A stretch of DNA of 64,000 bases. It comes from Marinicella marina. Lineage in GTDB: Bacteria > Pseudomonadota > Gammaproteobacteria > Xanthomonadales > Marinicellaceae. The stretch lies in assembly GCF_030065545.1 (NCBI RefSeq), contig NZ_JASJNC010000005.1, positions 124,001 through 188,000 of the forward strand, written 5' to 3'. Below, piece by piece: positions 32,292 to 35,608 of this stretch. The notes under the pieces were generated by a model, which worked only from the letters and a program-made list of their open reading frames with translations, was not told where the DNA came from and did no database searches. The position numbers and the translations under genes are program-made. How positions within the stretch are numbered: position 1 is the stretch's first letter; every line of letters starts with the position of its first letter.

Positions 32292-33323
32292 ATGAAATTC
32301 GTCGATGAAGTTAAGATAACAGTTAAGGCCGGAAATGGTGGCAGTGGATCTGCCAGTTTCAGACGAGAGAAATTTGTCGCCTTTGGAGGACCTGATGGCG
32401 GTGATGGTGGTCACGGAGGTAACATCATTCTCGAGGGTGACCAAGGGCTGAACACCTTGGTTGATTTTCGTCACAAGCGCCGTTTCGACGCGCAGAATGG
32501 TGAATCCGGTAAAGGCCGCCAGATGTATGGCAAAGGTGGCAACGATTTAATCATAAAAGTTCCTACTGGTACCGAGGTTTATGATTTAGAAACTGATCAG
32601 AAGCTTGGTGACATCACCACCCACCAGCAACAACTGGTAATCGCCCAAGGCGGTAAAGGTGGGTTAGGTAACATGCACTTCAAAAGTTCGGTTAACCGTG
32701 CGCCCAAACAATTCACTTCGGGAGAACAGGGTGAGCTGCGAGAGATCAAACTTGAGTTGAAAGTGCTGGCAGATGTAGGGTTATTGGGTTTTCCAAATGC
32801 TGGTAAGTCAACATTTGTGAATGCGATTTCCAAAGCACGCCCTAAAATTGCAGGTTATCCTTTCACCACACTTTATCCAGCTTTGGGAGTGGTGCCAGTG
32901 GATGCAGATACCAGTTTCGTGGTGGCTGATATTCCAGGTATCATCGAGGGAGCGGCTGAAGGTGCTGGATTAGGCATTCAGTTTTTAAAACACTTGCAAA
33001 GAACAGGGTTGTTGTTGCATTTGATAGAGCTCCCAGCTTTTGAGGGCATGTCAGATCCAGTAGAACAGTTCCATCAATTATCAGAAGAATTGGTTAAATT
33101 TTCAGAACACTTGAGAGAAAAGCAACGTTGGTTGGTGTTTACCAAGGCTGATGTAACCACTGCAGCAGATGCTGAGGAACTGGCGGCAGCTTATGCCAAA
33201 GCAATCGGTTGGCAAGGGAAGTATTATTTGATTTCATCAATCAATAAGACTGGTCTGAAAGAATTAATCAATGACATTGCTGCACACTTGTTTTCAGAGC
33301 AAGATGAGTGGCTTAAACCTTAA
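32292..33323 (+). CDS. obgE: GTPase ObgE/CgtA
   Basis: A 343-residue GTPase. ATG 32292 begins the Obg fold (MKFVDEVKITVKAGNGGSGS, then FGGPDGGDGGHGGN). The G domain follows with P-loop GFPNAGKST, switch region YPFTTLYP, DIPG and TKAD. The acidic C-terminal tail found in longer homologues (about 390 residues in E. coli) is shortened to EQDEWLKP. ObgE acts in 50S assembly and growth control. Its 3' end overlaps the convergent LysR-type gene by 11 nt. Confidence 0.97.
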   Translation: MKFVDEVKITVKAGNGGSGSASFRREKFVAFGGPDGGDGGHGGNIILEGDQGLNTLVDFRHKRRFDAQNGESGKGRQMYGKGGNDLIIKVPTGTEVYDLETDQKLGDITTHQQQLVIAQGGKGGLGNMHFKSSVNRAPKQFTSGEQGELREIKLELKVLADVGLLGFPNAGKSTFVNAISKARPKIAGYPFTTLYPALGVVPVDADTSFVVADIPGIIEGAAEGAGLGIQFLKHLQRTGLLLHLIELPAFEGMSDPVEQFHQLSEELVKFSEHLREKQRWLVFTKADVTTAADAEELAAAYAKAIGWQGKYYLISSINKTGLKELINDIAAHLFSEQDEWLKP

Positions 33324-34230
33324 CTTGTTTAAAAGTTTCTGCTTCCTCAAACAGCCATTGTCTGATCATTTGTAACTTATGGTCATCCTCCGTGTGCTCA
33401 GGGTAAACCAAATAATAAGACATTTTACCTTTCAATTTGATGTCAAAAGGTGCCACCAACAAGCCGCGAGCAATGTCATCCTGCACCAACGGTGTTCTAC
33501 CTAAAGAGAAGCCTTGGTGGTTCTCTACTGCCTCCAGCATGGTTACCATGTGGCTGAATCTAGTGCCACGTAACTTGGGCTTGGCTTCTATGTGAGCGGC
33601 TTCAAACCAATCATGCCAATCCTCAGTGGTAAAATCTTCGTGACATAAATTGGCATCCAATAACATTTCTGGCGTCAGATCACCTTGGAATGAATCAAAT
33701 AAATTTTTTGAGCAAATTGGGAACACCTCTTCTTCCAAGAAAAGCTCGCTTTTAAGGCCTGGGTAGTTGGGGTTGGCGGAATACCTGATGGCAATATCAC
33801 AGTCATCTTTCTTAAAATCAGTGAGCCACTCAAAAGCAGAAATTCTGACATCCAGTGTTTTGTGGTGCTGCTGAAACTTCCAGATTCTCTTGGACAGCCA
33901 TTTGGTTGCAAAAGAGGGCAAGACGGAAATGTTTAAGGTGCCAGAGGTGTCTCGGTCTTTCAGTTGTCTGGTGGCATTTTCCAGACTTTGTAAGGTGTTG
34001 CGGATGGTGATGAGGTAGAGTCTGCCCTCAAAAGTGAGTTTCAATGATCGATTGAAGCGCTCAAATAATTGTACCCCCACCAAAGCCTCTAAGTTTTTGA
34101 TTTGGTGGCTTACTGCAGCTTGTGTGACATGCAACTCTTGTGCTGCTTGGGTGAAGCTTAATAGGCGTGCCGAGGCCTCAAAGGCTTTGATGGCTCTGAG
34201 TGGTGGGATGTTTTTGTATTTGTTTGCCAT
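33313..34230 (-). CDS. LysR-family regulator, GcvA type
   Basis: A 305-residue LysR-type regulator. Its N-terminus (PPLRAIKAFEASARLLSFT, then QAAVSHQIKNLEALVGVQLF) and length put it in the GcvA/AmpR branch, whose E. coli member controls glycine cleavage and the divergent sRNA gcvB. The C-terminal effector domain is complete. A perfect inverted repeat sits 7 nt upstream of the ATG, a likely autoregulatory site, and a structured RNA gene is transcribed away from it. Whether it senses glycine cannot be read; no gcvTHP genes are in the window. Confidence 0.88.
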   Translation of the reverse strand: MANKYKNIPPLRAIKAFEASARLLSFTQAAQELHVTQAAVSHQIKNLEALVGVQLFERFNRSLKLTFEGRLYLITIRNTLQSLENATRQLKDRDTSGTLNISVLPSFATKWLSKRIWKFQQHHKTLDVRISAFEWLTDFKKDDCDIAIRYSANPNYPGLKSELFLEEEVFPICSKNLFDSFQGDLTPEMLLDANLCHEDFTTEDWHDWFEAAHIEAKPKLRGTRFSHMVTMLEAVENHQGFSLGRTPLVQDDIARGLLVAPFDIKLKGKMSYYLVYPEHTEDDHKLQMIRQWLFEEAETFKQVKV

Positions 34231-34236
34231 AATCTT

Positions 34237-34261
34237 TTCGGATTAGTATAACTTATCCGAA
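34237..34261. promoter_or_regulatory. Inverted repeat, probable LysR-type operator
   Basis: TTCGGAT (34237-34243) and ATCCGAA (34255-34261) form a perfect 7-bp dyad with an 11-nt AT-rich spacer, just upstream of the LysR-type gene start. Dyads of this size, with T-N11-A inside, are the usual LysR recognition form. It may control both the regulator and the divergent RNA gene. Confidence 0.6.
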
Positions 34262-34455
34262 GCATTAAAACAATTAGCTTGTCATCACCACTTTCCTAAG
34301 TAAAATAACGCTCTAACTTGTTATTCAAACGATTGTTTAATTTTGATTTAAGTTAATTAAAATTATTTGAACTTTCTTAATAACAGGTGTTCAAAGTAAC
34401 AAAGCAGATACATTTTAACTCCATTTGCTTTCACGTTATGTTCATCTTTGATGGA

Positions 34456-34461
34456 TATAAT
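34456..34461 (+). promoter_or_regulatory. -10 element of the small RNA candidate
   Basis: A perfect TATAAT at 34456-34461 places a transcription start near 34468. No good -35 is found at 16-18 nt, which would fit an activator-dependent promoter such as one driven by the divergent LysR-type protein. Confidence 0.55.
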
Positions 34462-34467
34462 AGGATT

Positions 34468-34597
34468 TAACAATTTTCATTGTTCCCCGAAATCGCAAGA
34501 TTTCACGCATGTTTCTTTAACATGCAAATATAGCTGAGGTTTTCCTCCCTCTTCCTCAGCAATACACTTAAGGCGTCAGTTTGACGCCTTTTTTTTT
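34468..34597 (+). ncRNA. Structured small RNA candidate divergent from the gcvA-like gene
   Basis: In a 538-nt gene-free region (34231-34768), four perfect hairpins follow one another. GAAATC-GCAA-GATTTC (34489-34504) has a GNRA tetraloop. GCATGTT-TCTTT-AACATGC is at 34507-34525. GCTGAGG/CCTCAGC (34533-34560) has a 14-nt pyrimidine loop containing CCTCC, complementary to Shine-Dalgarno sequences. The last is an intrinsic terminator (34570-34597). With the TATAAT at 34456 this predicts an RNA of about 130 nt. E. coli gcvB also lies divergent from gcvA, but the GU-rich R1 linker of GcvB is not seen. The rest of the region (34262-34455 and 34600-34768) shows only AT-rich DNA. Confidence 0.72.
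34570..34597 (+). terminator. Intrinsic terminator of the small RNA candidate
   Basis: AAGGCGTCA (34570-34578), loop GTT, TGACGCCTT (34582-34590) and a run of nine T (34589-34597) form a very strong intrinsic terminator. No protein-coding gene lies upstream on this strand for more than 1 kb, which is itself evidence for a non-coding transcript. Confidence 0.93.
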
Positions 34598-34768: not shown

Positions 34769-35608
34769 TTGGTTACCGCTGTGGTATTCACAGTCTATGA
34801 CTTGTTGTATCTTGAGCCCATACTCGATATTAGGGTATTTAATTTGGTAATTGAGATGTCATTTGCAGTGATGAGTTTGACCTTGTTTTTATCTATTGAC
34901 TCGCTGAAGGGTAAAACATTTTATTATTTTCTCAGTGCAGGGTTTTATTTGATATATTTATCCATGCTGGTTGATGGCTTGGATCAGTTGCATTTGCATA
35001 ATGAGTTCTACACTGCGGTTTGGGAAAAAACCACTTTATTGTTTGGTTTCACTTTTGTTTTTATTGGGGTCAAAAACTGGATCGTTGATCATGCCAAATT
35101 AAACAAGGAGCTGGAATTACAAGCCATTACTGATGAATTAACTGGTTTGTATAATCGCCGTGGTATCCTGAAAAAATTTGAAATTTTGAATGAATTAGCC
35201 ATACAACGCCATAAGACTTTGTCTTTCATCATTACCGATTTGGATGATTTCAAAATATATAATGACGCCATGGGACACCTTAGTGGTGATGAATTCCTTG
35301 CTGAATTGGGAAATACGTTGTATCAAATGGTTGGCGATGATCAGGTTATTGGTCGCTGGGGTGGTGAAGAATTTGCTGTGGGAATGCTCGGTAGTGACCT
35401 CAATGAAGCGCTCTTATTTGCCGAACAAATAAGGGCTGCGGTGGTTAATATCCCCATACCTGATGCCATCGATAAGCAGTCTGTGACAGCCAGTTTGGGT
35501 GTGGCTCAAAAAATGCCTCAAGAACCCTTCATGCTGGCCTTAAAACGAGCGGATCGGTCATTGTATGTGGCGAAACAGAAAGGTAAAAACCAATCCATTG
35601 CGAATTGA
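34769..35608 (+). CDS. Membrane GGDEF diguanylate cyclase
   Basis: A protein of up to 279 residues with three or four N-terminal hydrophobic helices (residues about 20-110), a short linker (ELELQAITDELTGLYNRRGIL) and a GGDEF domain with active motif RWGGEEF. The inhibitory RxxD site is absent (DQVI occupies the position). The start is uncertain: the frame opens at 34757 and offers TTG 34769 or GTG 34781, with no ATG until 34858. It should synthesise c-di-GMP. It is separated from the RNA candidate by about 170 nt and probably has its own promoter. Confidence 0.88.
   Translation: MVTAVVFTVYDLLYLEPILDIRVFNLVIEMSFAVMSLTLFLSIDSLKGKTFYYFLSAGFYLIYLSMLVDGLDQLHLHNEFYTAVWEKTTLLFGFTFVFIGVKNWIVDHAKLNKELELQAITDELTGLYNRRGILKKFEILNELAIQRHKTLSFIITDLDDFKIYNDAMGHLSGDEFLAELGNTLYQMVGDDQVIGRWGGEEFAVGMLGSDLNEALLFAEQIRAAVVNIPIPDAIDKQSVTASLGVAQKMPQEPFMLALKRADRSLYVAKQKGKNQSIAN

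Follow-up and report, generated by a model that had tools for sequence, protein, structure and literature searches.

Within a 64,000-nucleotide stretch of the Marinicella marina genome (the window, in which all positions are counted), the sequence and its relatives identify positions 34468-34597 as a genuine, conserved small regulatory RNA gene, which represents a new sRNA family of a well-known kind, without counterpart in Rfam or the papers searched. We favor, with moderate confidence, the explanation that its product is a trans-acting, probably Hfq-dependent envelope-stress sRNA that has two promoters and represses translation initiation. According to this model, transcription of the sRNA would begin at two promoters in tandem, the first of sigma-E type and the second of a kind activated by OmpR-family response regulators, and would end at one shared terminator. 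The sRNA, probably turned on under cell-envelope stress, would silence mRNAs by pairing across the translation start region. Its single-stranded 5' portion UUUUCAUUGUUCCC would pair over the Shine-Dalgarno (SD) sequence and AUG-AAA, favoring messages for exported and outer-membrane proteins, and the loop of its third hairpin would pair over purine-rich SD sequences. The features of the locus are collected in Table 1.

Table 1. Features of the sRNA locus and the adjacent regulator gene (window positions).
Feature	Positions	Strand	Description
sRNA gene	34468-34597	+	About 130 nt counted from the proximal promoter; fold, conservation, compensatory changes
Putative distal promoter P1, sigma-E type	34369-34395	+	GAACTT-N16-TCAAA; 16 of 17 genus loci
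Putative proximal promoter P2	34430-34461	+	Direct repeat TTCAC-N6-TTCAT (34430-34445), 10 bp, -10 box TATAAT (34456-34461)
5' element UUUUCAUUGUUCCCC, invariant core UUCAUUGUUC	34474-34488	+	Probable seed complementary to SD and AUGAAAA
Stem-loop 1, GCAA-type tetraloop	34489-34504	+	Double compensatory changes in 2 of 6 pairs, 100% paired
Stem-loop 2, stem sequence-variable	34507-34525	+	Double compensatory changes in 3 of 6 pairs, 100% paired
Stem-loop 3, anti-SD loop UUUUCCUCCCUCUU (34540-34553, 14 nt)	34533-34560	+	Loop and stem invariant in genus
Intrinsic terminator and U tail	34570-34597	+	Stem 34570-34590, T run to 34597; terminator scan; double changes in 4 of 9 pairs
LysR-type regulator, GcvA subfamily, divergent from sRNA	33313-34230	-	NF008352, 322 bits (cut-off 288)
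Putative GcvA-type operator ATTAG-N5-CTTAT, over the LysR gene's own promoter	34242-34256		Same place in LysR-bearing loci

The locus encodes a conserved, structured RNA

The 130-nt strand folds with an energy of -40.6 kcal/mol, compared with -16.0 +/- 2.7 for shuffled sequences (z = -9.07), and none of 200 shuffles folded as well. An earlier note on this DNA had described four stems, including one with a GCAA loop, one with a 14-nt loop and a terminator, all of which are present, and had reported no ORF, which agrees with our finding none of at least 60 codons at the locus. A fifth hairpin near the 5' end (34469-34484) appears in the minimum-energy fold; it is absent from the conserved structure of the relatives, which indicates that four is the correct stem count.

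DNA searches located the region in 17 of 18 Marinicella genomes, at 72-84% identity when the genome of the window is left aside, and the single genome without it is 81% complete. The covariance search that the earlier note had proposed was run with a model built from 10 genus loci, which recovered the remaining genus loci and also matched all three sister-genus genomes; the same model gave no further matches over 399 genomes of the order. An exact-pattern hairpin scan of approximately 85,000 species, with one genome per species, returned 18 contigs, which belong only to Marinicella or to MAGs of the same group. Rfam assigned no family at gathering or relaxed thresholds, and five homologues were likewise without a match at gathering. 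So far, the family has been found only in the marine family Marinicellaceae.

The stems are preserved by compensatory change. In the 17-sequence genus alignment, which had been fitted to the covariance model and thereby favors the structure, 98.6% of stem cells are paired (slid controls, 36-55%) and 10 base pairs carry double-sided compensatory changes, and none of 500 shuffles equaled the real alignment in pairing percentage, number of double-change pairs or covariation score. The changes are nonetheless plain in the raw alignment, where one stem varies from GAAATC/GATTTC to GAAGTC/GACTTC to GAAGCC/GGCTTC and the terminator stem from GGCGTCA to GGCGCCA to GGGCCTC. The covariation that the earlier note had called for is thus seen in these 10 pairs but not, within the genus, in the stem of the anti-SD hairpin, which never varies there; its covariation becomes visible only by comparison with the sister genus, in which the stem is replaced by CCGGTGAGG/CCTCACCGG and is still paired, and the loop core UCCUCCCUCUUCC is kept.

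The RNA is longer in the sister genus (L019, L020 and L050), at approximately 180-200 nt, and carries an additional G-rich arm there; this arm, which reads GGGGAAGGAGG in two of the loci, may be a competitor of the anti-SD loop. Some species have a GGDEF diguanylate cyclase gene (34769-35608) downstream of the sRNA. It is missing beside the sRNA in L009 and L012-L015, which keep the sRNA and the next gene, encoding a 2OG-Fe(II) oxygenase.

Two promoter motifs at fixed spacing precede the RNA

Upstream of the RNA, 16 of the 17 genus loci carry the P1 motif GAACTT-N15/16-TC[AT]AA, and spacers of other lengths were not observed; the probability of this by chance is 0.0004 per locus. The P2 motif, TTCA[CT]-N6-TTCAT, is found in all 17, always with a period of 11 and a distance of exactly 10 bp from the -10 box, for which the probability by chance is 0.00003 per locus. 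Given that the loci are related and not independent, these values cannot simply be multiplied. Neither motif was seen in the sister genus, although the RNA is kept there. The -10 box of P2 is the TATAAT that had been noticed at 34456, and P1 had been overlooked.

Promoters that OmpR-family response regulators activate are arranged in this way, with a repeat at a fixed distance before the -10 box, which suggests that P2 may be used by such a regulator. The P2 repeat resembles TTCACN6TTCAC, the tag of CreB (PMC4689548); CreB itself was rejected as the regulator because CreD is absent from the genome. P1 matches the sigma-E consensus for rybB and micA, GGAACTTTT / GTCAAA (PMC1804206), with TTTGAACTT in place of GGAACTT, which suggests that sigma-E transcribes the sRNA from P1. 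The genome encodes RpoE (271.8 bits, over the family cut-off) followed by RseA (RseA_N, 43.9 bits), and a DegP-like serine protease, read from the sequence, lies just downstream of these genes. A search upstream of rpoE itself for G[AG]ACTT-N14/18-TC[AT][AG]A did not reveal this motif; this result and the absence of both promoter motifs from the sister genus count against our model.

The divergent LysR gene and the relation to GcvB

The divergent LysR-type regulator had been called gcvA-like, and it proved to be the genome's only protein above the GcvA-subfamily cut-off (next best, 136 bits). The gene and the sRNA are arranged divergently in 16 of the 17 genus loci and in all three sister-genus loci, such that the proposal of a positional counterpart of GcvB holds as adjacency, in a genome where GcvB is absent. 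The sRNA is not GcvB: the GcvB model RF00022 has no match at the locus, and its best score in the genome, 18.1 bits (gathering, 42), lies elsewhere. Like GcvB, the Marinicella RNA is divergent from a GcvA-type LysR gene and ends in an intrinsic terminator; unlike GcvB, to which it has neither a sequence nor a model match, it is shorter, carries an anti-SD loop and an anti-start seed, and has promoters of sigma-E and response-regulator type instead of clear GcvA sites.

The strongest alternative to our model, which we nonetheless consider unlikely, is that the RNA is a functional counterpart of GcvB, activated by the GcvA-type LysR with glycine or another amino acid as the signal, that represses mRNAs for uptake and amino-acid metabolism. 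The LysR is the only GcvA-subfamily protein available for such a role, and it remains divergent from the RNA even in the sister genus, where the other neighbors are gone. Near the sRNA promoters, the only candidate site is a weak ATTA-N7-TAAT repeat, which abuts the -35 box of P1 in many loci, though L011 and L016 retain LysR and P1 without it. Of the sister-genus genomes, one has a GcvA-like repeat, ATTAACTCTGCTAAT, approximately 60 nt ahead of the RNA, and another has a similar repeat. One genus locus, L017 (G010:C45), can be read both ways: it is the only one without a LysR gene in the fetched 3 kb and has also lost P1, as the alternative would have it, yet it keeps the sRNA and P2, which speaks against the earlier suggestion that LysR drives the sRNA.

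In the case of GcvB, GcvA activates from sites near -65 and -43 of the sRNA start. The clear operator at the Marinicella locus is instead separated from the P2 start by approximately 220 bp, well beyond the normal activation distance, and lies 12-26 bases from the LysR start codon in the window. There it overlaps a -35/-10 pair of the minus strand (TTGTTT-N17-TATACT), an arrangement suggesting that LysR may regulate its own gene. Across LysR-bearing loci the operator varies as ATTAG/ATAAG-N5-CTTAT/TTTAT/CTAAT, and the published GcvA motif is ATTAG-N5-CTAAT (PMC5002191). The RNA also shares nothing with GcvB in its sequence or targeting elements. With the operator on the LysR promoter and promoters of sigma-E and response-regulator type before the sRNA, activation by LysR is unsupported, and control of the sRNA by LysR is possible.

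Two invariant elements could pair with translation start regions

Our model places target recognition in two elements. The first, which the earlier note had overlooked, is the 5' element: it is as invariant as the loop, its core being unchanged in 17 genus loci and retained in three sister-genus loci, and no conserved stem holds it. In most genus loci this single strand reads UUUUCAUUGUUCCC, and it is complementary to GGGGAACAAUGAAAA, which corresponds to an SD sequence followed by AUG-AAA. The second is the loop of stem-loop 3, complementary to GGGAGG-type SDs. The earlier interpretation of its CCTCC as an anti-SD sequence is supported, and the loop is invariant across all genus relatives, apart from an additional U that some loci have. 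The RNA has the features of Hfq-dependent sRNAs, namely an intrinsic terminator with a long U tail, an exposed seed and Hfq in the genome (105 bits), which suggests that it probably binds Hfq.

Predicted targets were evaluated over approximately 43% of the genome, using 379 pairs of orthologs that the window genome shares with a second Marinicella genome. With signal peptides and gene starts assigned by crude rules, the starts of predicted exported proteins paired better with the seed than other starts (p = 0.005), and one of 60 full shuffles gave a bias as strong. When UUUUCAU was held fixed and the rest of the seed was shuffled, 15 of 60 controls matched the exported-protein bias, which indicates that the bias comes mostly from complementarity to AUGAAAA. 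The best candidates that are conserved between the two species include a TonB-dependent receptor, a surface lipase-like lipoprotein and a protein resembling OmpA/OprF. An exact search of the genome for seed complements (GGAACAATGAAAA, one mismatch) returned 15 sites, few of which lie at real gene starts. Target prediction with the loop, which had also been proposed, gave no signal above shuffled loops among the conserved target sites of the 379 pairs (23 of 40 shuffles). Taken together, the target evidence, which comes from predicted pairing, is only suggestive. As a separate observation, the gene for a TonB-dependent receptor (G000:C17:211680 and G001:C1:93413, both minus strand; proteins 58% identical) has an unusually conserved 5' untranslated region, CTCATGGATAAC.ATTTGGAGAACA.

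The loop result bears on an alternative to which we assign a low probability, below that of a GcvB counterpart: the invariant C/U-rich loop may serve mainly to bind a protein or as a decoy, and not as an antisense element. Every loop base is invariant, beyond what pairing to varied SDs would need, the loop pairs with targets no better than shuffles do, and a second, unrelated RNA of the genus shows the same CUCCCUCU in a loop. However, no protein known to bind the loop motif was identified, and similar anti-SD loop motifs, CCUCCUCCC, occur in the known antisense families RFMSmelA075/A099 (PMC3927594).

A second RNA element with the same loop motif

The other conserved RNA element, present in 15 of 18 Marinicella genomes, occupies the space between rluD and pgeF-like genes (L165-L179, among them L167 at G000:C12:483487-483510, minus strand). 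It comprises a hairpin whose loop, GUGGCUUUACUCCCUCU, is invariant and whose closing stem covaries, and in many species its T run abuts the pgeF start codon. In 1.5 Mb of genome, hairpins with CUCCCUCU were limited to that of the sRNA and one other, which is without a U tail. Although the rluD-pgeF element resembles the sRNA in presenting this motif in a hairpin loop, it differs in locus and flanking structure and has no matching promoter or 5' element.

Comparison with known sRNA families

The enteric sigma-E-dependent sRNAs RybB and MicA share with the Marinicella RNA a 5' seed and a conserved upstream promoter of the form GAACTT / TCAAA (consensus from PMC1804206), and outer-membrane protein mRNAs are among the candidate targets of the Marinicella RNA. 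In contrast to RybB and MicA, it has a different sequence, a second promoter and an extra anti-SD hairpin loop, and its dependence on sigma-E is a prediction.

A hairpin loop that presents anti-SD CCUCC is also found in RFMSmelA075/A099, CcsR and mmgR/suhB. We consider it very improbable that the Marinicella RNA belongs, in diverged form, to a known anti-SD family, such as RF00519 (suhB/mmgR) or CcsR, both of which are alphaproteobacterial. A sub-threshold match to RF00519 (21.6 bits; gathering, 41; E = 0.37) points in that direction, but none of five homologues matches at the gathering score, and the Marinicella RNA has one CU-rich loop, not a repeated module. In the alphaproteobacterial RFMSmelA075/A099, by comparison, the CCUCCUCCC loop module is repeated three or four times and the genes are multicopy (PMC3927594), whereas the Marinicella RNA carries the single loop CCUCCCUCU, is single copy, belongs to a different bacterial class and has no model match above threshold. 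Weakest of all is the idea that the locus is not an RNA gene and combines chance hairpins with the terminator of something else, which no observation favors and which is already refuted by covariation, with compensatory changes in 17 relatives, and further opposed by the folding z-score of -9.07, the conserved promoters ahead and the lack of an ORF of at least 60 codons.

Implications

In the literature searched, with subscription journals outside its scope, we found no earlier descriptions of sRNAs for this bacterial group. The new family offers a complete, testable design: its two putative promoters have a fixed geometry, both of its proposed pairing elements are invariant, and it is linked to a GcvA-type regulator. 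More speculatively, and with little confidence, we propose that the sRNA position adjacent to gcvA has been taken over by an RNA unrelated to GcvB, which would replace amino-acid control with envelope-stress control, and that this RNA and the rluD-pgeF element may belong to a lineage-specific RNA set that shares the invariant CUCCCUCU loop and a common partner. The locus thereby allows one to test whether the sRNA neighbor of gcvA is exchangeable in evolution, and whether envelope-stress sRNAs with the same logic have originated independently outside the enterics.
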